Below are positions 19,199 through 35,339 of a DNA stretch of 44,158 bases, one piece after another; the first letter of the stretch is position 1; each line of letters begins with the position of its first letter. Position numbers and translations under genes: made by a program. The stretch is from Sulfurovum sp. (GTDB lineage Bacteria; Campylobacterota; Campylobacteria; Campylobacterales; Sulfurovaceae), in NCBI GenBank assembly GCA_028696055.1, contig JAQVHV010000003.1, positions 1 through 44,158 of the forward strand, given 5' to 3'. Below the pieces are notes generated by a model. That model searched no databases, was not told where the DNA came from, and worked only from the letters and a program-made list of their open reading frames with translations.

Positions 19199-20932
19199 AT
19201 GAACTCAACACATAAAACCTCTGCAGAAGTAGAGACGCTCTGCGATCTCGCGACATTGGCGGATTATTCTCTCATGGATAGATTAAACCCTGATCCCGAA
19301 GCAACAGCAGACGGTGTCGACCACGCGCCAAGAGAAGTCTTCAGCGGGCATTATGTCCCCGTCAACCCTACACCGATTGACGACCCCGTGTATATCGCGC
19401 ACAGTGAGAACTTCTTTCGTGAACTCGGGTTTAGCGACACTTTGGCAACATCAGAGGATTTTGTCAGAATGTTCTCCGGCGATACCTCGCAACTGCCGGA
19501 GCCGATGCGAAGGGTCGGTTGGGCGACAGGATATGCGCTTTCCATCTACGGAACGGAGTACTACGAGCAGTGCCCCTTTCAAACGGGTAACGGATACGGT
19601 GATGGCCGTGCCATTTCCATCCTTGAAGCAGTGATCAACGGAAAACGCTGGGAGATGCAGCTCAAAGGAGGCGGTAGAACGCCCTACTGCCGGGGTGCTG
19701 ACGGTCGTGCCGTCCTGCGTTCAAGTATTCGTGAGTTTTTGGCACAGGAGCATATGCATGCTCTGGGCGTACCGACATCACGCTCTTTGACTCTCTACAC
19801 CTCAAAAACAGAGACGGTCAGACGGCCATGGTTCACAAGTCGATCGTACTCAAGAGACCCTGAAGTGATGATCGATGAGGCCGTTGCCATCACCACACGG
19901 GTTGCACCTTCGTTTCTTCGGGTGGGTCAACTTGAACTTTTCGGTCGTCGTGCGCGTAAAAATGAGCATCCAAAAGCGATGGAGGAGCTTGAGCAGATCG
20001 TGCTGCACCTGATCGATCGTGAGTACAGTGACGTCATCGATGCGTCTTTGCCGACACAGGAAAAAGTGCTCTTACTGGCTCGCGAGTTTCGAAATCGACT
20101 CACCTCTCTGGTGGCGAACTGGGTCCGTGTGGGCTACTGTCAGGGAAATTTCAACAGCGACAACTGTGCCGCAGGCGGTTTTACCCTCGATTACGGACCG
20201 TTTGGGTTTATCGATATGTTTGACCCGAGATATCAGCCGTGGACGGGTGGCGGAGTGCACTTCTCATTTCTCAATCAACCGCAGGCTGCCGAGCGCAACT
20301 TTCATATGTTCTGCCTGGCTTTGAAACCGCTGCTGGCATCGAATGAGGATGCTCTGGATCAGTTGGATGAGATAAGAGAGGGATTTCCTCAGGTCATGCA
20401 GGGGCAAATGATAAAGATGTGGGCTTCCAAACTTGGACTCAAAACTTTCAATGCATCACTCTTCAATGCACTGGTAACGCTGATGATAGAGACCTCTGTT
20501 GACTATACGATCTTCTTTCGCGAACTCTCTACGGTACCCGAGGATATCTCTGTGCTCACTAAAAGCTTTTACGGTGACTCCGGATTCAATGAAAAGATCT
20601 TAAAAAGATGGTCAGAGTGGCTGGAAGAATGGAGAGCGCTCATTCAGCATTCCAACCCGGTCGATATCAATGCCACTTCGCCGGAATCCCGTGAAAAGCT
20701 TTCTAAGCAAATGAAAGCGTCGAACCCAAAATACACGTTGCGGGAGTGGTTTCTTGTCCCTGCCTATCAACAGGCCGCCCATGGAGACTATACACTCATC
20801 AAAGAGTTGCAGGAAGTGATGGCAAACCCCTACGCAGAGCAATCCAAAGAGATAGAGGAGAAATACTATAGAGAAAAGCCCTCAGAGTTCTTTGAAATTG
20901 CCGGCATATCCCATGTCAGCTGTTCGTCGTGA
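19199..20932 (+). CDS. selO: SelO/YdiU protein adenylyltransferase (pseudokinase fold)
   Basis: 577 residues of the UPF0061/SelO family, which transfers AMP from ATP to Ser/Thr/Tyr of target proteins, with roles in redox stress in other bacteria. Visible landmarks: [31 protein letters not shown] (ATP-binding Lys and Arg), [26 protein letters not shown] and [14 protein letters not shown] (metal-binding Asp). It ends in Cys-Ser-Ser; the Cys is third from the end, where animal SelO carries selenocysteine. Higher GC than the island before it. Single gene with its own AAGGA site. Confidence 0.95.
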
Positions 20933-21172: not shown

Positions 21173-23593
21173 ATGCAAATCGTGATCATAGGCGGCGGGA
21201 TATCGGCAGCATACATAGCCAATCGCATCAAAGAGAGAGCTATGGAAGCGGACGTACATATCATCTCAAATGAGCCTTGTGCACCCTATGACAGGATACA
21301 CCTCTGCCGCCTGGTGGGCAGCAAAGAGACTCCAAGAGATATCTCTTTGGAACTCCACCCTTCCGTAGAAGTCACATTGAACCAAAAAGTGATCAATATT
21401 GATACAGATGCCAAAAAAATACTCACAACCGACCACGCCTACAACTATGACAAACTGATCATCGCGACAGGATCTACCCCAAAAACGCTTTTTGATATCA
21501 AAGATCTTGATAATGCCAGCGTCTTTAGGTGTGCCAATGACGCTAAAAAGATCAAAGAAGGGATCAAAGGCCGTGAAGTAGTCATCGTCGGTTCTGGTCC
21601 CATAGCACTCGAACTGCTTGAAACACTGAATGCTATGGAAGATACAGCGCATATCACCCTGCTCGTACGCTCCAACAGACTCTATGACAGATCACTCTCG
21701 GCAGAGGCCCAAAACGAGATAGAATCAGCCTATCTTAAAAGCGGTAAACTGCATATCTCCTATGAAAATGAGATCATTGATAAAACCATCAAAGATGGAC
21801 ATATCACACAGTTAAAGACGAAGAAGTTTGAGATCAACGATCCCTATCTTATCTTTGGTGTGGGGATACAACCCAATATCGATTTTGCCAAGGCGTCGTT
21901 GGCATGCAAGAGAGGGATCTTGACCAATGATTTTATGCAGACAAGCGATGAGGATATCTATGCGGTTGGTGAGGCTGCTGAAGTGGAGTCACTGAACTTC
22001 ATTGCAGGCCATGTAAAAGAGTGTACACTCCAAGCGGATGTGGCCCTGTCTCATCTGTTTGGAAGCGAGGAGAAGAGATTTACCCCAGAAGTATCTGTAG
22101 ATATGTTAAAAGTCGGCGAATTTGACCTCATAGATGTCAGTAGTCCGGAACGTACCAAAGAGCAAGCGTTTGAAAAGATACTGATGACCTCCCCTAAGGA
22201 CCACAGGCTGGATGAGTACTATATCAGTGACGACAAACTGGTACGGTTTATAGGGCTAAACTCCAATGTGGATGTAGGTTACCTTGAAGACCTTATGCGA
22301 GACCAAAATCCGATAGATGCCTCCTACCTCTATGAGAACAGAGTCCTTTCAGAAAGAGGAAGGCTGATATGCAGCTGCGAACATCTCTATCAAAAAGACC
22401 TGGAAGATATCGTACGTATGAGCGGAGTATCCAATTTTCAAGAGCTGGGTGAGTTTACACAGGCAGGCCGTGTGTGCGGATGTTGTAAAAACATGGTAAA
22501 AAATATAATCGAAGCATCACAAGAGCTTATCGATCCGAATATGCCGAAAAAAACCCCTGAAGATATCAAACAGGAAAAAGAGATAGCGCGCGCTAAAGAA
22601 CGTATTGAAAAGTTCAACAGACTCCATCCGCATAACCAGCTTGACACCGATAACCTCTCCTCTGCTATGGATGCGTATGATATCACGGATAAAGAGATGA
22701 ACCAATGGGTTTCCATGGTGACAGCAAATATGCAGCTACACCCTGAGTTTGAGGAACTGGTAAAAAAAGGAGTTAAAACACTCAACAGGGTACCGGTGAT
22801 CTGGCTGGAACTGGCAGACTGTTCCGGTAACTCTGAAGCCTTTATCAAAACTGCTGATCCGGGCATAGCTGATCTGATCTTTGAGTATATCTCACTGGAC
22901 TACCATGAGCTTCTGATGAGCAGTGCGGGTGATCAGAGTGAAACCGTATTGGAGCATATCATCTCCCATCAAAAAGGAGAGTATATACTCATCGTAGAGG
23001 GGGCCATCCCTTTAGCAATGGATGGCAAGTTTTTACGTATAGGCCCGCAAGGTCAAACAGGACTTGAACTTCTGAAAAAGTGTGCGGAGGATGCTGCATT
23101 GATCATCTCAGTGGGTGCATGTGCGTTTGATGGTGGAGTAGTTGCAGCTGCGCCCAATCCTACGGGGGCAGTCGGTGTCAGCGAAGCACTTGGAAGAGAT
23201 GACATCATCAACCTTCCCGGATGTCCTGTCAACCCGATCAATATCGTCGGCACCCTGCTCTATTACCTGATGTTCGAAGAGCTTCCGGCGCTTGATAAGT
23301 ATAACCGTCCTCTATGGGCCTATGAGGGGAGGATCCATGACAACTGTGAAAGGCGTGGCCACTATGAGCTGGGTGAGTTTGTCAAAGAGTGGGGAGATGA
23401 GGGGGCGAAAAAAGGATGGTGTCTCTTTGAGATGGGATGCAAAGGGCCCTATGCCAATGCCAACTGCCCTACGATGAAGTTCAACCAGGGTACCAGCTGG
23501 CCGGTACAGGGCGGACACGGCTGTATGGGGTGTGTAGAGGCGAAGTTCTTTGACAGACTGGCAACGGAAAGAAAGATAGAGGAGGAAAAGTGA
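21173..23593 (+). CDS. Fusion: NirB-like FAD/NAD(P) oxidoreductase + BFD [2Fe-2S] + NiFe hydrogenase small subunit
   Basis: 806 residues in three parts. Residues 1-380 are a pyridine-nucleotide-disulfide oxidoreductase module: FAD loop GGGISAAY from 7, NAD(P) loop GSGPIALE from 140, and the second FAD motif DIYAVGEAAEV. Residues about 395-455 are a BFD-like [2Fe-2S] domain (Cys400, 402, 435, 438), as in NirB. After a charged helical linker, residues about 535-806 are a hydrogenase small subunit: proximal site Cys550, Cys650, Cys684, but Asn553 replaces the usual second Cys (CSGNSE); distal site His722, Cys725, Cys750, Cys756; medial site Cys765, Cys784, Cys787. There is no Tat signal, so it is cytoplasmic. 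The fusion would let electrons from H2 pass to FAD and NAD(P) within one chain (inference). Confidence 0.93.
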   Translation: MQIVIIGGGISAAYIANRIKERAMEADVHIISNEPCAPYDRIHLCRLVGSKETPRDISLELHPSVEVTLNQKVINIDTDAKKILTTDHAYNYDKLIIATGSTPKTLFDIKDLDNASVFRCANDAKKIKEGIKGREVVIVGSGPIALELLETLNAMEDTAHITLLVRSNRLYDRSLSAEAQNEIESAYLKSGKLHISYENEIIDKTIKDGHITQLKTKKFEINDPYLIFGVGIQPNIDFAKASLACKRGILTNDFMQTSDEDIYAVGEAAEVESLNFIAGHVKECTLQADVALSHLFGSEEKRFTPEVSVDMLKVGEFDLIDVSSPERTKEQAFEKILMTSPKDHRLDEYYISDDKLVRFIGLNSNVDVGYLEDLMRDQNPIDASYLYENRVLSERGRLICSCEHLYQKDLEDIVRMSGVSNFQELGEFTQAGRVCGCCKNMVKNIIEASQELIDPNMPKKTPEDIKQEKEIARAKERIEKFNRLHPHNQLDTDNLSSAMDAYDITDKEMNQWVSMVTANMQLHPEFEELVKKGVKTLNRVPVIWLELADCSGNSEAFIKTADPGIADLIFEYISLDYHELLMSSAGDQSETVLEHIISHQKGEYILIVEGAIPLAMDGKFLRIGPQGQTGLELLKKCAEDAALIISVGACAFDGGVVAAAPNPTGAVGVSEALGRDDIINLPGCPVNPINIVGTLLYYLMFEELPALDKYNRPLWAYEGRIHDNCERRGHYELGEFVKEWGDEGAKKGWCLFEMGCKGPYANANCPTMKFNQGTSWPVQGGHGCMGCVEAKFFDRLATERKIEEEK

Positions 23594-23611: not shown

Positions 23612-23714
23612 AAATGCAGTGCAATAAATCACTAAATGATTTATGTGAAATTCAATGCAGTGAGGCACTTTTAAGACTAAAGTCTAATGCAGGCCTTTCA
23701 CTAAATGAAAGGCT
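23612..23714 (+). promoter_or_regulatory. Three tandem hairpin units in the gap before the large-subunit gene; the last sequesters its ribosome-binding site
   Basis: Three units each begin AATGCAG (23613, 23654, 23686) and carry a stem: ATAAATCA-ctaaa-TGATTTAT (23624-23644), AGACT-aa-AGTCT (23674-23685) and GCCTTTC-actaaat-GAAAGGC (23693-23713). The 3' arm of the last contains GAAAGG, the ribosome-binding site of the gene starting at 23720. Confidence 0.65.
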
Positions 23715-23719
23715 GTGAA

Positions 23720-25396
23720 ATGCCGAATCGTAAAAAAATCGTCATAGACCCTATCACTCGCATCGAGGGGCATCTGCGTGCAGAAGTTGAGATAGATGAG
23801 AACAATGTGGTCAAAGAGGCCTATGTAAGCGGACAGCTCTTCAGGGGGATAGAGATCATACTTAAAAATAGAGACCCAAGAGATGCAGGCTTGCTGGCAG
23901 GAAGGATCTGTGGCGTCTGTACCAATGTACACTTCCGTGCAGCGATCTCGGCGGTTGAAGATGCCTACGGCATCACGATACCGACCAACAGCGAGATCAT
24001 CAGAGACCTGATGGCACTGGCACTCTTTCTGCAGGATCATGTCGTTCACTTTTACCATCTGCACCTTTTAGACTATGTTGATGTCACCAAAGCGCTTGAG
24101 GCAGATCCGGAGCTCACCTCAGAAATTGCCCAAAAGTACTCCTCCCAACCTTACCGTAACTCAGACACACACTATGTAGAGGTGAAAGAGAAACTCAAGA
24201 AGTTTGTGGATGCCGGGAGACTCGGACTTTTCAGTAACGGGTATTGGGGACATAAAGCCTATACGCTTACACCTGAAGAGAATCTCCTTCTGTTATCGCA
24301 CTACCTCGAAGCGTTGAAGTTTCAAACCGATATCTCCAAAGCTGTTGCCATTTTCGGGTCAAAGACCCCGCACCCGCAGACTATCGTAGTGGGCGGGATC
24401 ACCAGTGTGGCTGACATGATCAACCCGCAAAGACTCAATGAGTTCATTTTGATTCTCAAAGAGTCAAAAGCGTTTATAGACAGAGCCTACCTGCCTGATG
24501 TCAGATTGATCACAAAGGCCTACAGAGAGGATATCAAGGCGGGTCATGGACGCACAGAAGGGAACTTTCTCTGTGTGGGAGGATTTCCGCTGGATAAAGC
24601 GCATCGACTCTTTGAAGACGGTATCATTTTTGGACACGAGCTGGAGAGGGTTCAGCCTTTTGATGAGAGTAAGATCACCGAAAATGTAGATCGTGCCTGG
24701 TATGAAGGAGATGAACCGCACTATACAGACCTCAACGAGGACGGTACACTCAAAACCCAGAAAAGAGAGGATAAATACAGCTGGGTCAAAGCACCGCGTT
24801 ATGAGGGAAAACCCATGGAGTGCGGGCCGCTTGCAAGAGTGCTTGTCAGCTATCAAAAAGGGAACCGCTTTATCAAACCTTTTGTAGATGAGTTCCTTGA
24901 GGCATGCCAGCTGGAACTGGGCGACCTTGCCACCACTGTCGGTAGAAATGCAGCCAGGGCCATAGAGAGTGCCTATATCGGCGAATATATCTTCAAGCTT
25001 GTGAACAATCTTCTTGAACATATCAAGTACTATGATACGGAAACCTGGAGCAAGTATGACTTTGAGGAGTTGCCGCATCAGGCCAAAGGGAGGGCTTTCT
25101 TTGAAGTGCCCAGAGGTGTGCTCAGCCACTTTGTCAATATAAAAGATCAAAAGATCGCCAATTATCAGGTCATCGCTCCAACCACATGGAATGCCTCTCC
25201 AAAAGACAGTGAAGATCAAAGAGGCCCCTATGAAGAGGCACTTATAGGGATTAAACTCGAAGATCCTTCCCGACCTTTGGAAGTCTTACGCGTACTCCAT
25301 GCCTTTGATCCGTGTCTGGCCTGTGCTGTACATATCATCGATACCAAAGGCAAAGAGCTAAGCAAATACAAGATAAACTCAATCTGTTCAATCTAA
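23720..25396 (+). CDS. NiFe hydrogenase large subunit (cytoplasmic, group 2-like)
   Basis: 558 residues, the catalytic subunit that binds the NiFe(CN)2CO site. The N-terminus IDPITRIEGHLRAEVEI is the family opening; L1 is RICGVC (Cys64, Cys67) and L2 is DPCLACAVH (Cys532, Cys535). A 20-residue tail after His538 (IIDTKGKELSKYKINSICSI) is the peptide expected to be removed by the maturation protease encoded at 29094. I choose ATG 23720 over ATG 23705: GAAAGG lies 7 nt upstream, and the first conserved residues follow closely. The subgroup is judged from the lack of a Tat-exported partner and the small-subunit motif; phylogeny was not run. Confidence 0.95.
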   Translation: MPNRKKIVIDPITRIEGHLRAEVEIDENNVVKEAYVSGQLFRGIEIILKNRDPRDAGLLAGRICGVCTNVHFRAAISAVEDAYGITIPTNSEIIRDLMALALFLQDHVVHFYHLHLLDYVDVTKALEADPELTSEIAQKYSSQPYRNSDTHYVEVKEKLKKFVDAGRLGLFSNGYWGHKAYTLTPEENLLLLSHYLEALKFQTDISKAVAIFGSKTPHPQTIVVGGITSVADMINPQRLNEFILILKESKAFIDRAYLPDVRLITKAYREDIKAGHGRTEGNFLCVGGFPLDKAHRLFEDGIIFGHELERVQPFDESKITENVDRAWYEGDEPHYTDLNEDGTLKTQKREDKYSWVKAPRYEGKPMECGPLARVLVSYQKGNRFIKPFVDEFLEACQLELGDLATTVGRNAARAIESAYIGEYIFKLVNNLLEHIKYYDTETWSKYDFEELPHQAKGRAFFEVPRGVLSHFVNIKDQKIANYQVIAPTTWNASPKDSEDQRGPYEEALIGIKLEDPSRPLEVLRVLHAFDPCLACAVHIIDTKGKELSKYKINSICSI

Positions 25397-25407
25397 AGGA
25401 GATTCTT

Positions 25408-25584
25408 ATGTTGAAAACTATTATCGTTCTGTTCTCATTGACCGCACATCTTTTTGCACACGCTGAGGGGCACGATCATTTGCACCTCTTAGGTTTTCTG
25501 CACAGCAATGAATTTGGTGTTTTAGTCATTGTGATCCTGGGGATTTTTATACTCTACAGATATTTGGAGAAAAAAAATGTGTAA
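25408..25584 (+). CDS. Tiny His-rich membrane protein of the hydrogenase operon
   Basis: 58 residues: N-terminal signal-like helix (MLKTIIVLFSLTAHLFAHA), a His-rich centre AEGHDHLHLLGFLHS with five His, and a membrane helix FGVLVIVILGIFILYRYLEK. AAAGGAG precedes the ATG with 7 nt spacing, and the stop overlaps hypB by 8 bp, so it is a genuine operon member. It could bind Ni2+ or Zn2+ near the membrane, or dock the soluble hydrogenase; both are inference. Not HupE, which is much longer. Confidence 0.75.
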   Translation: MLKTIIVLFSLTAHLFAHAEGHDHLHLLGFLHSNEFGVLVIVILGIFILYRYLEKKNV

Positions 25585-26317
25585 AGATTGCGGTTGTTCG
25601 GTCACAGAAGCGCATCATCATGATCACTCTCATGAAACCTTGCATCATAACCCGCAGCTCAATGACAGTAAGACCATAGATGTCATCACCAAAATTTTGC
25701 ATAAGAACGATCATGAGGCAGCACATAACAGGGAGCATCTGGAGAAACACCATGTACTGGGTATCAATCTTATGAGCAGCCCCGGAAGCGGCAAGACCTC
25801 TCTGCTGGAAGCGATGGCAGATCTTGCTGATTTTTCATTTGCTGTGGTAGAGGGTGACCTGGAGACAAACAAGGATGCCCAGAGACTGAAAGCCAAAGGA
25901 ATCGAGGCGTATCAGATACAGACAGGGTCTGCCTGTCACCTGGATGCCTTTATGGTACACAAAGGGCTTCACCATATAAACCTAAATGAAATTGATATCT
26001 GTTTTGTGGAGAATGTAGGCAACCTTGTCTGTCCTGCAAGCTATGATGTGGGCATGCATCTGAACATCGTACTGGTCTCCATCCCCGAAGGGGAGGACAA
26101 GATCGCCAAATACCCTGTGATGTTCAGGAAAGCGGACCTTATACTTTTTACAAAGACCGATCTCCTCCCCTATTTTGACTATGATATCGAATCTGAAAAA
26201 AGGGCGGCCAGAACATTGAAGCCCAATGTGGACATTCTTGAGGTCAACACCAAAGATCCGGAAAGTATCAAAAAAGTGCTTGAGTGGATAGCGTTCAAAC
26301 ATAGGTTCAGGAGTTGA
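25577..26317 (+). CDS. hypB: Hydrogenase nickel incorporation GTPase HypB
   Basis: 246 residues. The N-terminal CKDCGC motif (residues 2-7) is the high-affinity Ni site of E. coli-type HypB, followed by a His cluster (EAHHHDHSHETLHH). The G domain has P-loop SSPGSGKTS near 67-75, a switch region with VVEGDLET, the metal-site Cys in TGSACHLDA, and TKTDLL for guanine recognition. It delivers Ni2+ with HypA to the large-subunit precursor, driven by GTP hydrolysis. HypC starts 1 nt after the stop. Confidence 0.97.
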   Translation: MCKDCGCSVTEAHHHDHSHETLHHNPQLNDSKTIDVITKILHKNDHEAAHNREHLEKHHVLGINLMSSPGSGKTSLLEAMADLADFSFAVVEGDLETNKDAQRLKAKGIEAYQIQTGSACHLDAFMVHKGLHHINLNEIDICFVENVGNLVCPASYDVGMHLNIVLVSIPEGEDKIAKYPVMFRKADLILFTKTDLLPYFDYDIESEKRAARTLKPNVDILEVNTKDPESIKKVLEWIAFKHRFRS

Positions 26318-26318
26318 T

Positions 26319-26612
26319 ATGTGCCTCTCCATCCCTTCTCAGATCACCAGGATCGACCGCAGCCGCAATCTAGCGACAGTGGAAACCATGGGTGTAGCGC
26401 GTGAAGCATCACTGGATCTTATCGACCGGCCTGTAGATGTGGGGGACTATGTGTTGATACATATCGGTTTTGCGATGAACAAGATCGATGAAGCGGATGC
26501 GCTCCAAAGTCTTGAATCATACAAAGAGATCATTGCAGCGATGGAAGCAGAAGAACAAGAACAGTTTATCACACAGAGTGACCACTCTACCCATCGGGGT
26601 GAAGATGAGTAG
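26319..26612 (+). CDS. hypC: Hydrogenase assembly chaperone HypC
   Basis: 97 residues beginning MCLSIPSQI; Cys2 is the essential residue that holds the Fe(CN)2CO intermediate with HypD and then binds the large-subunit precursor. The body (NLATVETMGVAREASLDLI, VGDYVLIHIGFAMNKID) is typical OB-fold HypC. The C-terminal 25 residues are an acidic extension. The stop overlaps hypD by 8 bp. Confidence 0.97.
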   Translation: MCLSIPSQITRIDRSRNLATVETMGVAREASLDLIDRPVDVGDYVLIHIGFAMNKIDEADALQSLESYKEIIAAMEAEEQEQFITQSDHSTHRGEDE

Positions 26613-27729
26613 TCTTTCGTTAAGGGAGCTTTATGAAGGCTTCCGTGATCCCAGAACCATACGGGCGCTGGTCAAGAAGATTGAGATCGAGGCAGATAAG
26701 CTTGGGCGGGATATACATATCATGGAGGTATGCGGAGGCCATACCCATAGCATCGTCAAACATGGTCTTCACCAGCTTATGCCGCAGAACATCCATTTTA
26801 TACACGGTCCCGGATGTCCGGTATGTGTCTTGCCCAAAGAGCGTATAGACCATGCCTACAGACTGGCTATGCAGAGTGATGTGATACTGGTCACACTGGG
26901 AGATATGATCAAAGTTCCGGGTTCCAAAGGATCGCTGCAGGATGCAAGGGCACAAGGTGCAGATGTAAGATATGTCTACTCTCCTCTTGATACGCTCAGG
27001 ATCGCCAAAGAAAACCCGGATAAAAAGGTGATCTTCTTTGCGATCGGATTTGAGACGACTACCCCGATGACTGCTGCGCTTGTTGGACATGTCATCAATG
27101 AAAAAATCGATAACATTTTTTTTCATATCAATCATATCACTGTTCCTGAACCAATGAAAGTACTCCTGGATGCCAAAAGATCAAAGATCGATGCCTTTAT
27201 CGGTCCCAGCCATGTCAGCGTCATCTCCGGAGCAAAGATCTATAAAGTGTTTCCCGAAGCGTACCATACCCCTGTGGTCGTTTGCGGTTTTGAACCGGTA
27301 GATATCCTGGAAGGTATTCTGATGCTCCTAAAACAACGCAATGACAATCGTTGTGAAGTAGAGATCGAATATACCCGGAGTGTCACACCCGAAGGCAACC
27401 TTGTGGCACAGAAACTCATCGATACTTTTTTCGAAAAACGTAACCATTTCCGCTGGCGCGGCATAGGAGATATTGCGCAGAGTGCACTGCAACTCAGAGA
27501 GGAGTTTGCCTATCTGGATGCTGAAAAGATCTACAGCGACCTGCTGCCGAACCATCAGATAGACGATCACAAACAGTGCATATGCGGGGAGATACTCATG
27601 GGAGCGGCAAACCCCTGCGAATGCAAGCTCTTTGGCAATGCCTGTACCCCCTCCTCTCCGCTTGGAAGCTGCATGGTCTCCAGCGAGGGTGCATGTGCGG
27701 CATACTACAGATATGGAAATATGCGATGA
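26605..27729 (+). CDS. hypD: Hydrogenase maturation protein HypD
   Basis: 374 residues. HypD is the scaffold where CN and CO are attached to iron. Conserved blocks: MEVCGGHTHSI, HGPGCPVCVLP (Cys in the Fe site), IGFETTTP, IGPSHVSVI, and the C-terminal [4Fe-4S] region CICGEILMGAANPCEC...NACTP...GSCMVSSEGAC. I start at ATG 26605, which overlaps the hypC stop; an in-frame ATG 117 nt upstream would only read hypC sequence in the wrong frame. Confidence 0.97.
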   Translation: MSSLSLRELYEGFRDPRTIRALVKKIEIEADKLGRDIHIMEVCGGHTHSIVKHGLHQLMPQNIHFIHGPGCPVCVLPKERIDHAYRLAMQSDVILVTLGDMIKVPGSKGSLQDARAQGADVRYVYSPLDTLRIAKENPDKKVIFFAIGFETTTPMTAALVGHVINEKIDNIFFHINHITVPEPMKVLLDAKRSKIDAFIGPSHVSVISGAKIYKVFPEAYHTPVVVCGFEPVDILEGILMLLKQRNDNRCEVEIEYTRSVTPEGNLVAQKLIDTFFEKRNHFRWRGIGDIAQSALQLREEFAYLDAEKIYSDLLPNHQIDDHKQCICGEILMGAANPCECKLFGNACTPSSPLGSCMVSSEGACAAYYRYGNMR

Positions 27730-28721
27730 AAAGCATCACATTGGCACACGGGAATGGCGGGGAAGAGAACGGCAGACTTATAGAGGAGCTTTTCTACAAA
27801 CACTTTCATAATCCCATCCTCGAACAAGCAGAAGATGCTGCCCTGATAGAAAAAGGCAGACTGGCATTTGCAACCGACAGTTTTACGGTGACTCCACTCT
27901 TTTTCAAAGGCGGGGATATCGGTAAACTCAGTATATGCGGCACATGCAATGACCTGGCCATGATGGGTGCAAAACCAAAATACCTCACCTGTGCGGTGAT
28001 CATCGAAGAGGGATTTGAGATGCCATTGCTTGAAAAGATCGTCCTATCCATGAGATCAGAACTTGAAAAAAACGGGGCCATCATCGTCAGCGGAGACACC
28101 AAGGTCGTCCCCAAAGGAAGTGTCGATAAGCTCTTTATCAACACCACCGGGATAGGAGAGATACGCTATCAGGGGATCTCCGCCAATACGCTCAGTCCGG
28201 ATGATGTGATCATCATATCTAACAGCATCGGCAAACATGGTGCGACCATATTTTTGGAGCGTGAAGGGATGGAGTTCTCCACTGCACTTGAAAGTGACTG
28301 CAGATCACTGTGGCCTGTGGTTGAAAAGCTTATAGAGGCAAATATACGCATCAAGGCCATGAGAGATGCCACAAGAGGCGGTATCGCAGCCGTTCTCAAC
28401 GAGTGGGCCAAACAGTCTGATATCTGTATAGAAGTGGAGGAGGAAAATGTGCCGGTCAGCCCGGAGGTCAAAGGTGTATGCGAACTCTTGGGCTTTGAGG
28501 CATTCAGTTTGGCCAACGAAGGTACATTCCTTATCGCTGTAGACCCCGAAGATGCCCTAAAAACCGTGGAACTGTTACGTTCCATGGAAGCCTCCTGTAT
28601 GGCAAAAGTCATTGGCAAGGTTACGAACAGACATCCTCGGAAAGTGCTGCTGAAGACACCATATGGCACCACCAGATTCCTTGAGCTTCCATCAGGCGAA
28701 CTGCTCCCGAGGATATGCTGA
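27726..28721 (+). CDS. hypE: Hydrogenase maturation protein HypE (carbamoyl dehydratase)
   Basis: 331 residues, AIR-synthase/PurM fold. It dehydrates the thiocarboxamide on its C-terminal Cys to thiocyanate, the source of the cyanide ligands. MKSITLAHGNGGEENGRLI is the ATP-loop start, with FATDSFTVTPLFF, MRDATRGGIAAVLNEWA and the C-terminus ending PRIC, which presents the acceptor Cys. ATG overlaps the hypD stop (ATGA). Confidence 0.97.
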   Translation: MKSITLAHGNGGEENGRLIEELFYKHFHNPILEQAEDAALIEKGRLAFATDSFTVTPLFFKGGDIGKLSICGTCNDLAMMGAKPKYLTCAVIIEEGFEMPLLEKIVLSMRSELEKNGAIIVSGDTKVVPKGSVDKLFINTTGIGEIRYQGISANTLSPDDVIIISNSIGKHGATIFLEREGMEFSTALESDCRSLWPVVEKLIEANIRIKAMRDATRGGIAAVLNEWAKQSDICIEVEEENVPVSPEVKGVCELLGFEAFSLANEGTFLIAVDPEDALKTVELLRSMEASCMAKVIGKVTNRHPRKVLLKTPYGTTRFLELPSGELLPRIC

Positions 28722-29062
28722 TGCATGAATACTCCATCGTTAGCTCACTCATAGAATTGTGTGAAGAAGAGGCTGGCAAACATCAAGCTGCCAGTGTAAA
28801 GAGGGTTGAAGTCAAGATCGGTGCATACAGCGGGGTGGAGCCGCATCTTCTTGAAGTGGCATTTGCTACATTCAAAAAGACAGGTATCTGCAAGAATGCC
28901 GATTTTATCATGCATATTCAGCCTCTGAAGGTGAGATGTTTTTCCTGCGGCGCAGAGAATGAACTCATAACCAACCGATACTGCTGTCCAAAATGTGAGA
29001 GTCCCAATGTAGAGGTCATTGACGGCGAGGAGATGTACCTGATGCGTCTGGAACTGGAGTAG
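28721..29062 (+). CDS. hypA: Hydrogenase nickel incorporation protein HypA
   Basis: 113 residues. The start must be ATG 28721 so that the protein begins Met-His-Glu-Tyr: the N-terminal amine and His2 bind Ni2+. An in-frame ATG two codons upstream would mask that site. The zinc site is CFSCG...CCPKC near residues 72-92. It hands nickel to HypB and the large subunit. The ATG shares its A with the hypE stop (TGATG). Confidence 0.96.
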   Translation: MHEYSIVSSLIELCEEEAGKHQAASVKRVEVKIGAYSGVEPHLLEVAFATFKKTGICKNADFIMHIQPLKVRCFSCGAENELITNRYCCPKCESPNVEVIDGEEMYLMRLELE

Positions 29063-29093: not shown

Positions 29094-29624
29094 ATGAAAA
29101 GTATCGTGATCGGAGTAGGAAACACGCTTTTCAGAGATGACGGTATCGGCGTCTATGCGGCCTGCTTCCTCAAAAAAAATTACGCATTTTCCCCACACCT
29201 TGAGATCCTGGATGGAGGTACCATGGGGCTCAATCTGATAGGATACCTTCAAGCGTATGAGCAGGTGATCATACTCGATACTCTCTCCATCGATGATGAG
29301 CCAGGTGAACTCTACAGGATACCGGCCGATGAATTTCACGGCCTCGGAGCACAAAGAAACACAGCCCATGAAGTCGAGATCATACAGATGCTTGAGGCAG
29401 GAGCACTTTATGACTTAGAGGCCCGTGTAACTATCCTCGGCATAGTCCCGGAGGATATCACGACTGTATCTGTAGGACTTAGTAGTTCTTTGGAGCAGCA
29501 TTTTAGCAGCTATCTGCAATTGGTACTCGATGAGATCACTTCCCTGGGGATTGAACCAACACGAACGAAAGAGTGTTCTCTTCAAACCGTGATTGAAGAG
29601 CTTATGGGAAGCGATCATAGATGA
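29094..29624 (+). CDS. NiFe hydrogenase maturation endopeptidase (HyaD/HupD family)
   Basis: 176 residues. It recognises nickel in the assembled large subunit and cuts after the His of L2, here releasing the 20-residue tail. Metal-probing residues are Asp16 (GNTLFRDDGIG), Asp62 (VIILDTLS) and His92 (NTAHEVE). AAAGGAGAG precedes the ATG. The C-terminal 20 residues are a weakly conserved extension. It overlaps hypF by ATGA. Its presence beside the only large-subunit gene in the window suggests a dedicated pair. Confidence 0.95.
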   Translation: MKSIVIGVGNTLFRDDGIGVYAACFLKKNYAFSPHLEILDGGTMGLNLIGYLQAYEQVIILDTLSIDDEPGELYRIPADEFHGLGAQRNTAHEVEIIQMLEAGALYDLEARVTILGIVPEDITTVSVGLSSSLEQHFSSYLQLVLDEITSLGIEPTRTKECSLQTVIEELMGSDHR

Positions 29625-31837
29625 AAAACTATCATCTTACGATCCGGGGTACCGTACAGGGAGTCGGCTTCCGTCCCTTTCTCTATCGTCTGGCAAAAGA
29701 GCTTCAGATCAACGGCAGAGTATGGAACTCTCATCAGGGCGTTGAAATGCTTCTTCAAGCCTCCCCTGCACAGCTTGAGAACTTTTTGAGACAACTGAAA
29801 GCCGATCCCCCGCCCCGCTCAAAGATCGATGAGCTCCATTGCAAGAGTATGGAAAAAGAGATAGATTTTTCAGAAATGACTATTGATCATAAGAAGAGAA
29901 AAGAGGGAACTCTCAATCTTATCACCCCTCTTGATACAGGGATATGTAAAAAGTGTAAAGAGGAGCTATTTGACCCTTCAAGCAGACGTTACCTCTACCC
30001 TTTTATCAACTGTGTGGAGTGTGGACCACGCTATACGGTACTCAAAGCACTTCCCTATGAGAGAGAAGAGACTTCAACGCATGCCTTTCCGCTATGCAAG
30101 AAGTGCCAGGAGGAGTATGAGAACCCTGATAACCGCAGGTTTCATGCACAAGGCATCTGTTGTCCGGAGTGCGGTCCCCAGATCGCACTCTATGATCATC
30201 ACGCCAAGATCTCTAAAGGGATAAAGGGGCTTGAACTTATCATAGAGGCACTGGCTGAAGGGAAAATCATCGCCATGAAAGGCATAGGAGGATTTCATCT
30301 CATTTGTGATGCAACCGATACCCAAGCCGTCAAACGTTTGCGCGAGAGAAAACATCGCCCTTCAAAACCATTTGCCGTAATGGTCAAAGAGATCAAAGAT
30401 GCCAAAAAACTCTTAGAGATCAATGCGCACGAAGAAGCCTTGCTCACCTCTTCCAAGAAACCTATCCTTATCGCTCAAATGAGATCACATGCCAGCCTCA
30501 GTGCACAAGTCGCACCGGGACTCGACAAGCTTGGGGTGATGCTTGCCTATACCCCACTGCAGTTGATGCTTTTGGAACGATTTGATAAACCGATTGTTCT
30601 CACAAGCGCAAATATCAGCAGTTCACCACTCTGTGCATCATTTGATGAGATAAAGGCCCATAAACATCTATGGGACCTTTGCCTTGACCATGATCTGGAG
30701 ATCATAAACCGGTGTGATGACTCTGTGGTCATGAGTGTGGATAATAAAACAGTGGTATTAAGAGGTGCCAGAGGGTACGCTCCAACGCATTTTAAACTTC
30801 CTGCCGGTATCAATAAAAACACTTTATCTGCCGGTGCCAACCAAAAGAGTACGATAACGATCTCTTTTAATGAGCATCTGGTCATCTCCCCCTACATTGG
30901 CGATCTGACATCTGTTGAATCGATAGAGCATTTTGAGAAAACACTACACGCTTTTGAGGCTTTATACCATTTTATACCCGACCGGATCGTCTGCGACAAA
31001 CATCCCCTCTATGAGACTACCAAATGGGCCAAAAACCAAAAGTATGAGACGGTCCAGGTTCAGCACCATAAGGCGCATATCGCTTCAGTAATGTTTGAAC
31101 ATCATCTCAAAGAAGAGGTGCTTGGCGTAGCATTTGACGGGAGCGGGTATGGTGATGACGGAAAAGTGTGGGGCGGGGAGTTCTTCCGTGGTGCAAGGGA
31201 CGACCTTAAAAGAATAGGGAACTTCAAATACTTCAAGCTACTCGGGGGTGAAACCGCCATCAAAGAACCGCGTAGAGTAGCCCTCTCTTTACTCTTTTCA
31301 CTCTACGGCAAAGAGGCAATAAACCTCAAAAATCCCACCACTGCCGCATTCAGCAAAAATGAAATAGAAAACCTCTATCTGCTTTACGAAAAAGGGATCA
31401 ATGCTCCCTTGAGTAGTTCAGCCGGCAGACTCTTCGATGCTATAGCCAGTATCACAGGGATCTGCCAGCAGATAAGCTATGAAGGAGAATGCGGTATGCG
31501 CATGGAATCCTTTTATGATCCTCAGATCACCCAGAGCTATCCTTTTGAAGTGATCAACGGCGAAATCGACTGGTCTATGATGATCGAAGCGGTATTGGAA
31601 GAAGAGCATCAAACTCAGGCTGTTTCCAAATTCTTCAATACCCTGGTTGAGATCATCTGTTACTTTTATGAGCAAGAGCATTTGAAAGTGGTGGTTGGCG
31701 GAGGTGTATTTCAGAACAAAACACTCCTTGGGCTCCTTTCCGGTAAAATAGACGATCTATATTGGAATGAACAAGTCCCTGTCAATGATGGCGGAGTGAG
31801 TATGGGACAGCTTGCATTCGTACTGGAAAAAGAATAA
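29621..31837 (+). CDS. hypF: Carbamoyltransferase HypF
   Basis: 738 residues; makes carbamoyl-AMP from carbamoyl phosphate and transfers it to the HypE Cys. Domains in order: acylphosphatase (RGTVQGVGFRPFLYRLA, 1-85), two zinc fingers with CKKC...CVEC and CKKC...CPEC (about 108-190), YrdC-like domain (IIAMKGIGGFHLICDA; KHRPSKPFAVM) and Kae1-like domain (VQHHKAHIASV; VAFDGSGYGDDGKVWGGEF). Complete and of normal length. Last gene of the hydrogenase operon. Confidence 0.97.
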   Translation: MKNYHLTIRGTVQGVGFRPFLYRLAKELQINGRVWNSHQGVEMLLQASPAQLENFLRQLKADPPPRSKIDELHCKSMEKEIDFSEMTIDHKKRKEGTLNLITPLDTGICKKCKEELFDPSSRRYLYPFINCVECGPRYTVLKALPYEREETSTHAFPLCKKCQEEYENPDNRRFHAQGICCPECGPQIALYDHHAKISKGIKGLELIIEALAEGKIIAMKGIGGFHLICDATDTQAVKRLRERKHRPSKPFAVMVKEIKDAKKLLEINAHEEALLTSSKKPILIAQMRSHASLSAQVAPGLDKLGVMLAYTPLQLMLLERFDKPIVLTSANISSSPLCASFDEIKAHKHLWDLCLDHDLEIINRCDDSVVMSVDNKTVVLRGARGYAPTHFKLPAGINKNTLSAGANQKSTITISFNEHLVISPYIGDLTSVESIEHFEKTLHAFEALYHFIPDRIVCDKHPLYETTKWAKNQKYETVQVQHHKAHIASVMFEHHLKEEVLGVAFDGSGYGDDGKVWGGEFFRGARDDLKRIGNFKYFKLLGGETAIKEPRRVALSLLFSLYGKEAINLKNPTTAAFSKNEIENLYLLYEKGINAPLSSSAGRLFDAIASITGICQQISYEGECGMRMESFYDPQITQSYPFEVINGEIDWSMMIEAVLEEEHQTQAVSKFFNTLVEIICYFYEQEHLKVVVGGGVFQNKTLLGLLSGKIDDLYWNEQVPVNDGGVSMGQLAFVLEKE

Positions 31838-32733: not shown

Positions 32734-33726
32734 ATGCAATACTATAAAGAAGAGAAAGAAAAAGAGAGGATCATCTGCCTGCTCTGCCGCCACTACTGCA
32801 AACTCAAAGAAGGCAGGATAGGAATGTGCGGTGTCAACCAGAATGTTGGGGGCAAACTGAAAAATCTGGTATACGGCCACCCTGTTGCACTCCATGTCGA
32901 TCCGGTAGAGAAAAAGCCGCTTTACCATCTTCTTCCTGGAACTACCGCCCTCTCCTTCGGGACGGTCGGGTGCAACTTCCGGTGTCCTTTCTGCCAGAAC
33001 TGGGATATCTCCCAGGAACATAAGATCAATGAAAATATCTATGTCTCCCCCGAAGAGATGGTAGCAATGGCACTTGAAAACGGATGCAGTTCGATCGCCT
33101 ACACCTACAATGAACCGACGATTTTCTATCCCTATGCCAAAGATATCGGTCTGCTTGCAAAAGAAAAGGGACTGAAAAATATCTATGTAAGCAACGGGTT
33201 TGAAACTCCCGAAGTGATCGAAGATATGGGAAGCTGGCTCGATGCGGCCAACATCGACCTGAAAAGCTGGAATGACGAATACTACAGAAAAGTACTCAAA
33301 GGAGGCCTTGAAGAGGTCAAGGATACCCTGAGAAGAATGGTGGCCCAAGGGATATGGGTGGAGGTGACCACACTCCTGATAGAGGGTGAAAATGACAGCG
33401 ACAAAGATCTCAGAGAGATGGCAGAGTTCATCAAAAATGATTTGGGAGCCCATGTCCCCTGGCATCTGAGCGCATTCCATCCCGACTACAAAATGCTTGA
33501 TCATGAAAGAACAGGCCTGGAGACACTGAAGCGCGCCAAAAAGATAGGAAAAGAGGCGGGGCTGCACTATATCTACCTGGGGAATGTCCCTGTGCATGGC
33601 GATACGCACTGTCCCGAATGCAACGAACTGCTGATAGACAGAACAGGATATACGATCACCGTCAATAAACTAAAAGACGGGCATTGCCCCAAATGCCAAA
33701 GAGAGATTGAAGGAGTCTGGGAATGA
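32734..33726 (+). CDS. amrS: AmmeMemoRadiSam system radical SAM enzyme
   Basis: 330 residues. The radical SAM motif is GCNFRCPFCQNWD (C-x3-C-x2-C) near residue 80. An N-terminal Cys cluster (CLLCRHYCKLKEGRIGMCGV) and a C-terminal pair of CxxC motifs (CPEC, CPKC) suggest extra metal sites. This arrangement is characteristic of the rSAM member of the AmmeMemoRadiSam set. The reaction is not known; gene linkage to Memo and AMMECR1 proteins is the defining feature and is seen here. AGAGGGG lies about 7 nt before the ATG. Confidence 0.93.
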   Translation: MQYYKEEKEKERIICLLCRHYCKLKEGRIGMCGVNQNVGGKLKNLVYGHPVALHVDPVEKKPLYHLLPGTTALSFGTVGCNFRCPFCQNWDISQEHKINENIYVSPEEMVAMALENGCSSIAYTYNEPTIFYPYAKDIGLLAKEKGLKNIYVSNGFETPEVIEDMGSWLDAANIDLKSWNDEYYRKVLKGGLEEVKDTLRRMVAQGIWVEVTTLLIEGENDSDKDLREMAEFIKNDLGAHVPWHLSAFHPDYKMLDHERTGLETLKRAKKIGKEAGLHYIYLGNVPVHGDTHCPECNELLIDRTGYTITVNKLKDGHCPKCQREIEGVWE

Positions 33727-33735
33727 CTCCTTCTC

Positions 33736-33933
33736 TTGCCAAAGGCAAAGCAACTAATAACTAGGAGTGAGGAGTGTTGGCATGCTTTTCTTACGAAAAG
33801 CTTTTGTTGAAGTGTGTATGATGGTCTTTAAAGCCCACCCTGTTAACAGAAGTGGTGTCTGACCAGAGGGAGGAAGTGCCTTTAGGGTGAGGAACGAAAG
33901 TGAAGCCACAGAAGAGAAGAAGCTTTGCTTCTT
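33736..33933 (+). repeat. Intergenic element copy 3 and neighbouring hairpins between amrS and amrB
   Basis: This 240-bp gap has no gene. It holds TTGCC-aaa-GGCAA (33736-33748), then AACTAATAACTAGGAGTGAG, GAGTGTTGGCATGC, and GCTTTTC-ttac-GAAAAGC (33784-33801). The tract-plus-hairpin order resembles the elements after argC and greA. A further perfect stem AAGAAGC-ttt-GCTTCTT is at 33917-33933, shortly before the amrB ribosome-binding site. Confidence 0.5.
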
Positions 33934-33966
33934 TTCAAGGAGATGAAAACAAAAAGGAGTCTGGAG

Positions 33967-34776
33967 ATGAGCACAAGAGAGACAGCGGTAGAGGGCCAGT
34001 TCTACCCTTCCAACCCCCAGGAGATAAAAAAAGTATTTGACCACTACAACCAGATACTTGAAAAACATTTTGCAAAAGAGGATCCGATCTGGCAGCTGCA
34101 CCCCAGAGCCGTCATTGTTCCGCATGCAGGATATATCTACAGCGGTTTCACGGCCAATATCGCATTCAAACTGCTTGCAGATCAGGAGATTGAACGTATC
34201 GTGATCATCGGTCCGAGCCACCGTGTCTATTTCAAAGGGACCAGTATCGCCGATTGCGACACTTACCATACGCCGCTGGGCGACCTTCCCATAGACAGAA
34301 AACTTGGATGCGAACTGAAAGAGGAGTTTGGCCTGGAGTACTTTCCCGAAGCACACCACGAACACAGCACAGAAGTGCAGTTTCCTTTTATCAAAGCCTA
34401 TAAGCCGGAGGTGCAGGTCGAAGAGATCGTCTATTCTGATGAGAAACCTGAGAGACTGGCACCCCTGATCAAACGCTTGCTTCAGGATCCCAAGACCGCA
34501 GTGGTAATCAGCACAGATCTCAGCCACTACTACAATATCAAGAAAGCAAACCATCTTGACAACATCTGTCTGGATGCCGTAAAAACCCTTGATCGGACGA
34601 AGCTGCACGAAGGGTGCGAAGCGTGCGGAAAGATCGGTGTGGAGGCCTTGATGATTGCAGCAAAAGAGCTGGGGCTGGAACCTGTCCTGCTGGATTATCG
34701 GACAAGTGCGGATGCAAGCGGTGATGAGTCGCAAGTCGTCGGATATATGAGCGCTGCTTTCGTGGAGTCCAAATGA
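33967..34776 (+). CDS. amrB: AmmeMemoRadiSam system protein B (Memo family)
   Basis: 269 residues of the MEMO1 fold, related to class III aromatic dioxygenases. Conserved metal-site positions are visible: His53 (VPHAGYIYSG), His85 (GPSHRVYF), Asp184 and His187 (STDLSHYY) and Cys217 (EGCEACGKIG), matching His/His/Asp/His/Cys of human MEMO1. Function in bacteria unknown. I take ATG 33967 with GGAG 7 nt upstream and the family start ETAVEGQFYPSN; an ATG 42 nt upstream adds an unrelated basic stretch. Overlaps amrA by ATGA. Confidence 0.93.
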   Translation: MSTRETAVEGQFYPSNPQEIKKVFDHYNQILEKHFAKEDPIWQLHPRAVIVPHAGYIYSGFTANIAFKLLADQEIERIVIIGPSHRVYFKGTSIADCDTYHTPLGDLPIDRKLGCELKEEFGLEYFPEAHHEHSTEVQFPFIKAYKPEVQVEEIVYSDEKPERLAPLIKRLLQDPKTAVVISTDLSHYYNIKKANHLDNICLDAVKTLDRTKLHEGCEACGKIGVEALMIAAKELGLEPVLLDYRTSADASGDESQVVGYMSAAFVESK

Positions 34777-35339
34777 AAAAAGAGGTGTTACTGAAACTTG
34801 CACGTGCAGCCATCGCCGAAGCAGTGGGAGTCCCCTACCCCCTGGATCTGGATGGGATGCTTCAGGCGAACCCCTGGCTCAAAGAGGATGGCGCATGTTT
34901 TGTCACGCTCACCGTCGGGGAGTATGAGATGCTCAGAGGCTGTATCGGCTCTATCGTCGCACACCGCCCTCTCTATGAAGATCTGGTCCACAACGCAAAA
35001 GCTGCTGCACTGGATGATCCGAGATTTCCTTCACTGAGTAAAGATGAGTTTGAGAAGATTGTGATAGAGGTCTCTATCCTTACACCGCCGCAGGAAATCG
35101 ACTACAGTACTGTCGATGACCTGAAAACAAAGATCAACGTAGGCATTGACGGTGTGATCCTCAAACACGATGCAGTCCACCAGGCGACCTACCTGCCGCA
35201 GGTATGGGAAGAGCTACCGGATTTTAAAAGTTTTTTCATGCATCTCTGCATGAAAGCCGGTATGGGGATGGAGTGCCTCGCCTTCCACCCGCAGATTTTT
35301 ACCTATCAGGTAGAGAAGCATAAGGAAGGTAGTAAGTAG
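34773..35339 (+). CDS. amrA: AmmeMemoRadiSam system protein A (AMMECR1 domain)
   Basis: 188 residues. The AMMECR1 signature LRGCIGS is at 54-60, followed by AAALDDPRFPSLSKDEFEKI and IEVSILTPPQEI. AMMECR1 proteins are widespread but biochemically undefined. Translational coupling to amrB and linkage to amrS suggest the three act together, perhaps modifying a shared substrate. The last codons (KEGSK) overlap the start of a repeat element, so the C-terminus may have been reshaped by it. Confidence 0.93.
   Translation: MKKEVLLKLARAAIAEAVGVPYPLDLDGMLQANPWLKEDGACFVTLTVGEYEMLRGCIGSIVAHRPLYEDLVHNAKAAALDDPRFPSLSKDEFEKIVIEVSILTPPQEIDYSTVDDLKTKINVGIDGVILKHDAVHQATYLPQVWEELPDFKSFFMHLCMKAGMGMECLAFHPQIFTYQVEKHKEGSK

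Follow-up and report, generated by a model that had tools for sequence, protein, structure and literature searches.

The 44,158-nucleotide window, an entire contig (C28) from a Sulfurovum draft genome of 1.9 Mb (87% complete), contains a single open frame in which a [NiFe]-hydrogenase small subunit is joined behind a flavoprotein and a BFD-type [2Fe-2S] domain. As judged from the comparisons presented here, the fusion is real, conserved, under selection and already published in silico. It probably forms part of a cytoplasmic, soluble, two-polypeptide H2:NADP+ oxidoreductase, in which a group 1b-type small subunit has been fused behind a flavoprotein-BFD protein. If true, widespread sulfur-oxidising bacteria own an H2-to-NAD(P)H enzyme of unusual simplicity, with two polypeptides compared with four or more in the soluble group 3 hydrogenases, which bears on how these bacteria pay for carbon fixation and would provide a cofactor-regeneration catalyst.

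Architecture and occurrence of the fused gene

The frame starts with ATG, encodes 806 residues and comprises the following features.

21173..23593, + strand: fused [NiFe]-hydrogenase small subunit, 806 residues (domain matches and 66 distinct full-length homologues)
21173..21979, + strand: FAD/NAD(P) flavoprotein domain, Pyr_redox_2, residues 1-269, ferredoxin-reductase fold (Pfam and fold comparison)
21305..21307, + strand: Cys45 in PYDRIHLC (invariant in 66/66 fusions)
21665..21673, + strand: V165-R166-S167, predicted 2'-phosphate selectivity site for the pyridine nucleotide, NADP(H) type (alignment of 66 fusions and BphA4 comparison)
22364..22513, + strand: BFD-type [2Fe-2S] domain with C400, C402, C435 and C438 (Pfam and alignment)
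22586..22783, + strand: linker, residues 472-537, a fossil Tat signal peptide with n-region; D506-K507 in place of the twin arginines (alignment, HMMs, hhalign)
22784..23557, + strand: NiFe small-subunit core, residues 538-795 (Pfam/NCBIfam and alignment)
within 22784..23557, + strand: cluster ligands, proximal C550, N553, C650, C684; distal H722, C725, C750, C756; medial C765, C784, C787 (alignment)
22820..22831, + strand: proximal-cluster motif C-S-G-N, with C17 kept and C20 replaced by Asn, as in HucS (alignment of 66 fusions and HucS comparison)

The sequence-only reading had placed an FAD/NAD(P) oxidoreductase, a BFD domain with cysteines 400, 402, 435 and 438, and a small subunit in this one frame. 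Indeed, Pfam assigns Pyr_redox_2 to residues 1-269 (E 1e-40), Fer2_BFD to 398-447 (1e-8), Oxidored_q6 to 550-697 and NiFe_hyd_SSU_C to 717-795 (6e-29), the NCBIfam model hydA (TIGR00391) covers residues 492-798 with 372 bits, and the four cysteine positions are exact. The proposed likeness of the N-terminal half to NirB stands for the order of the domains, an FAD/NAD(P) domain ahead of a BFD domain with the pattern CxC...CxxC, but not for the fold. The NirB model (TIGR02374) matches residues 1-449 only, with 155 bits against a cut-off of 578; the sirohaem/[4Fe-4S] half is missing, a single BFD domain is present, and identity to the nearest non-fused homologues found is ~28%. The flavin part adopts the fold of ferredoxin-NAD(P) reductases like putidaredoxin reductase and BphA4 (Foldseek, E 1e-29 to 1e-32, with target-based TM-scores of 0.80-0.85). 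The ferredoxin of those enzymes is a separate protein, whereas the BFD domain would be the built-in ferredoxin of the fused flavoprotein.

The same fusion was recovered as 66 distinct full-length sequences, the set behind the conservation counts given here. Full-length fusions were present in 10 further genomes of a sample of 60, and a scan of 84,980 species genomes yielded ~65 fusion loci, nearly all in Campylobacterota (including Sulfurovum, Sulfurimonas, Sulfuricurvum, Hydrogenimonas and Arcobacter). When the phylum was sampled evenly, the fusion turned up in 40 of 397 genomes, representing 12 of 68 genera. The scan found it outside the phylum in Thiomicrospira microaerophila and Hydrogenovibrio sp. 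SC-1; both gammaproteobacterial copies nest inside the Campylobacterota clade of the small-subunit tree, which suggests that they were acquired by transfer. The plasmid records searched held no full-length fusion. That two genes had been wrongly joined by an assembly or annotation error has a negligible probability and was ruled out, since the identical join recurs across dozens of assemblies made independently, some of them single-contig or gammaproteobacterial; no support for such an error was found, and the fusion is genuine.

The suspicion that the fusion might already be catalogued in related Campylobacterota proved correct. The fused small subunit of Hydrogenovibrio crunogenus XCL-2, whose in silico description Hansen & Perner 2016 credit to Scott 2006, has 813 residues, includes a pyridine nucleotide-disulfide oxidoreductase and lacks a Tat signal (PMC4744846). 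Fusions of this type, ~813 residues long, lack a Tat signal and a cytochrome b and accompany a group 1b-type large subunit; they include the XCL-2 operon Tcr_2035-2043, cluster I of strain SP-41 and the copies of Sulfurovum sp. AR, Sulfurimonas autotrophica, Sulfuricurvum kujiense and T. microaerophila (PMC4744846, PMC6501319), as well as that of Arcobacter nitrofigilis (PMC4744846). The window protein, a single frame of ~800 residues with the oxidoreductase N-terminal to a group 1 small subunit, shows no difference in kind and is ~56% identical to the Sulfurovum sp. AR copy, which was recovered here together with that of T. microaerophila (L080 and L086). The architecture itself is already known in silico, and the window protein is another member of that type; no biochemistry of the fused enzyme, including NAD(P) reduction, was found in the literature searched. 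The fossil Tat linker, the Huc-like proximal site and the NADP-type pocket are new and absent from that literature; new too are the purifying selection on every region and the closed genomes in which the fusion is the sole small subunit.

The linker and its relation to Tat signals

Stand-alone small subunits of Campylobacterota start with an n-region and a Tat signal (SRRDFLKWASATTAMLMLPASFTPLVAEAAELMNRVPVIW), and the fusion linkers align in register with these presequences (ITDKEMNQWVSMVTANMQLHPEFEELVKKGVKTLNRVPVIW). With a threshold of E<=0.01, an HMM built from the presequences only detects all 66 linkers and none of 1320 shuffled ones. In the reverse direction, an HMM of the linker picks out Tat-bearing small subunits among 4576 ORFs, while ORFs other than fusions, fusion fragments and small subunits reach only E ~0.9 or worse. 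Profile-profile comparison (hhalign) relates linker and Tat presequence with 98% at E 2e-13, and the whole-fusion profile, aligned over 491-795 to 8-310 of the Desulfovibrio precursor chain 1h2a, reaches into that chain's presequence. As the linker-only profile matched no hydrogenase among PDB chains, the case for a fossil Tat signal rests on the Campylobacterota homologues.

The features associated with export are gone. The RRxF motif is found in all 30 stand-alone small subunits and in none of the 66 fusions, which likewise lack the RRxFxK twin-arginine signal of periplasmic group 1b HydABC (0/66). Mean hydropathy of the h-region falls from +0.96 in the stand-alone proteins to -0.05 in the fusions, and the alignment shows that the fusions lack the C-terminal anchor helix which the stand-alone proteins have. 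The alignments and profiles indicate that the linker (~472-537) is a remnant of a Tat export signal whose twin arginines have been lost and whose hydrophobic core is now polar.

Tat signals are present across group 1 hydrogenases, and for this reason the Tat-bearing state is taken as the older one; the tree itself does not prove the order. The fusion clade has 77% support in a quick small-subunit tree with a long outgroup branch and weak rooting, so no claim is made about its sister Tat lineage. The group 1b HydABC enzymes of Campylobacterota (Wolinella, Helicobacter type) have stand-alone small subunits 44-50% identical to the fusion small-subunit core, and share with the fusion locus the large-subunit family and the HupD/HyaD-type protease. 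The fusion differs from them in that the Tat signal has become a linker, anchor and cytochrome b are gone, a flavoprotein-BFD part has been added and C20 is replaced by Asn. The small subunit would derive from a Tat-exported, membrane-anchored group 1b-type enzyme joined in frame behind a flavoprotein-BFD protein, with the export signal surviving as linker, minus twin arginines and hydrophobic core, and the anchor helix lost. On balance, we lean towards the view that the fusion trapped the Tat signal inside the protein and moved the hydrogenase from periplasm to cytoplasm, the dead signal persisting as a conserved interdomain linker; a respiratory enzyme would have become a one-step H2-to-NADPH converter with a Huc-like proximal site and a built-in ferredoxin. 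Such a fossil signal would illustrate how an enzyme once exported can return to the cytoplasm.

Cluster ligands, operon and selection

The BFD cysteines and the proximal, medial and distal ligands are invariant in the 66 fusions except at the Cys20 position, with one gap at C787. A small subunit described as complete with three cluster sites is confirmed for all ligands but this one: the proximal Cys20 is Asn553 in 66 of 66 fusions (DCSGNSE versus ECTGCSE), and the CxxC proximal motif of group 1b HydABC is absent from them. Of two Tat-exported lineages, one has the same Asn, as do most signal-less small subunits of ~300 residues, and HucS of the group 2a hydrogenase Huc has CSGN at this site. 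All three clusters of Huc are [3Fe-4S] (PMC10017518). Analogous to Huc, with which it shares the CSGN motif, the fusion is likely to hold a [3Fe-4S] proximal cluster. Because the site occurs in working enzymes, the Asn is not in itself a sign of decay. The two differ at the distal site, where the fusion keeps the His (H722 in 66/66, HDNC) and HucS has Thr (TGC); moreover, Huc reduces menaquinone and has no flavoprotein.

Apart from the fusions, a second Tat-exported hydrogenase lineage of Campylobacterota was observed beside the classical CTGC type, with a Huc-like C-A-G-N proximal motif and a clade of its own (99% support). Its members are stand-alone small subunits (L013, L014, L015, L018-L020, L109, L111, L112, L114-L116, L118, L120-L122), and matches to the region also occur on plasmids of Sulfurovum mangrovi and Sulfurimonas paralvinellae.

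Downstream of the fusion lie the large subunit and the maturation genes.

23705..25396, + strand: [NiFe]-hydrogenase large subunit, PF00374, with RICGVCT and DPCLACAVH and a C-terminal extension (Pfam/NCBIfam)
25577..26317, + strand: HypB (Pfam, cobW/HypB/UreG family)
26319..26612, + strand: HypC (Pfam)
26608..27729, + strand: HypD, sole copy in the genome (Pfam and genome search)
27723..28721, + strand: HypE, AIRS family (Pfam)
28715..29062, + strand: HypA (Pfam/NCBIfam)
29094..29624, + strand: HupD/HyaD-type large-subunit endopeptidase (Pfam/NCBIfam)
29621..31837, + strand: HypF (Pfam/NCBIfam)

The adjoining large subunit is of group 1b type, with the L1 and L2 motifs RICGVCT and DPCLACAVH. 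The fusion had been set against soluble hydrogenases with a separate diaphorase; the operon indeed holds no diaphorase genes, and its large subunit is not of the ShyA/HoxH type found in the NAD(P)-linked bidirectional hydrogenases of group 3 (ShyA 107 bits, cut-off 700). The operon also has no cytochrome b gene, the PF01292 matches of the genome being on other contigs. One hydrogenase and one HypD were found in the draft genome, both in the window. Wherever the contig extends far enough, the large subunit lies directly downstream of the fusion, with the exceptions of L051 (10001-12412) and L069 (9962-12421), full-length fusions whose flanks show no large-subunit gene within ~9 kb downstream.

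Hansen & Perner judged the Fe-S sites unconserved and offered decay as one possibility for XCL-2, where H2 uptake was absent from every fraction under the conditions tested (PMC4744846). The lack of detected uptake in a strain carrying the same type counts against an active enzyme, and a non-functional hydrogenase that has shed Tat signal, anchor and Fe-S sites would fit the missing Tat signal and cytochrome b and the incompletely matched group 1 cluster motifs (PMC4744846). Pairwise dN/dS is, in contrast, 0.06-0.11 for the whole gene (14 pairs), 0.05-0.14 for the linker and ~0.1 in all four regions; by this measure every region of the fusion is under purifying selection. All cluster ligands but one are invariant, and at the exceptional position HucS and Tat-exported relatives normally have Asn as well. 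Among 39 fusion genomes of high completeness, 7 have the fusion as their only PF14720 small subunit, two of these being single-contig, and the homologous cluster of strain SP-41 is transcribed, more so with H2 as sole donor (PMC6501319). Decay is very improbable and was rejected on purifying selection and ligand conservation. If the fusion is a working enzyme, the published suspicion that such genes are wrecks is answered, and the long-open XCL-2 puzzle becomes testable.

Nucleotide site and proposed electron flow

Position 165 is acidic in none of the 66 fusions, and 166 is Arg in 64 of them. BphA4 T176R variants score 40.2-41.1 bits compared with 37.4 for the wild type, which places R166 at BphA4 position 176. 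Wild-type BphA4, which is NADH-dependent, has Glu-Thr-Gln where the fusion has Val-Arg-Ser. In enzymes that use NAD, the second strand of the nucleotide domain typically ends in an acidic residue, and NADPH is favoured by T176R-type mutants of BphA4 and by Arg198 of E. coli glutathione reductase. From the absence of an acidic residue at 165 and the Arg at 166 we infer that the nucleotide site prefers NADP(H); position 172, the equivalent of the second 2'-phosphate-binding Arg in glutathione reductase, is not basic and counts against this.

In the proposed enzyme, the large subunit would cleave H2 at its NiFe site. The small-subunit domain would relay the electrons over its proximal cluster (probably [3Fe-4S]), its medial [3Fe-4S] and its distal [4Fe-4S] cluster to the BFD [2Fe-2S] cluster, to which it is covalently joined; from there they would reach FAD, which would reduce NADP+ by hydride transfer. 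Its likely role would be to supply NADPH for autotrophy without reverse electron transport. A hard-wired electron exit in a cytoplasmic, two-polypeptide enzyme, as the sequence-only reading had it, is still the best-supported reading, with electron path and location as predictions. An AlphaFold model of the fusion alone is poor in the small-subunit half and too weak for cluster distances.

The main reason for caution is the proximal site. In Huc, a high-potential proximal cluster accompanies menaquinone reduction (PMC10017518), and a proximal [3Fe-4S] cluster of high potential would make transfer to NADP+ (~-320 mV) harder. A higher-potential acceptor would suit such a site, and the same enzyme in the same location may instead reduce NAD+ or a soluble carrier (ferredoxin, rubredoxin, thiol or quinone). 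This alternative would accord with the invariant Cys45 and with the presence of NADH-using ferredoxin reductases and CoA-disulfide reductases among the relatives by fold; Arg at the 2'-phosphate position in 64 of 66 fusions with an acidic residue in none argues against NAD+, and in our reading of the alignment Cys45 is off the cysteine position of the CoA-disulfide reductase family. An acceptor other than NADP+ is accordingly unlikely, though it deserves weight. Cys45 (PYDRIHLC, window 21305-21307) is absent from aligned non-fused relatives and may lie near the flavin.

The direction of flow can also be questioned. NADH electrons flow inward in NirB, which has the same domain order, and many fusion hosts are probably microaerophiles; electrons could pass from NAD(P)H through FAD and BFD to the NiFe site for reactivation after O2 damage, for O2 removal or for venting reductant as H2. 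NADPH-driven H2 formation is, however, uphill unless H2 is very low, and protection alone leaves the loss of anchor and export unexplained. Such reverse flow is improbable, and H2-driven reduction of NADP+ is the direction we favour.

Further genes of the region were observed alongside. A SelO protein adenylyltransferase gene lies directly upstream of the fusion (window 19199-20932), with no relative seen beside other fusions. Between large subunit and hypB is a 58-residue His-rich ORF (window 25408-25584), probably a one-helix membrane protein, with no Pfam family and no relative seen in the loci scanned. Downstream of hypF, three ORFs (window 32734-35339) resemble by eye a radical SAM, MEMO and AMMECR1 trio, relatives of which also occur close to the fusion in L067, with a single one in L087.
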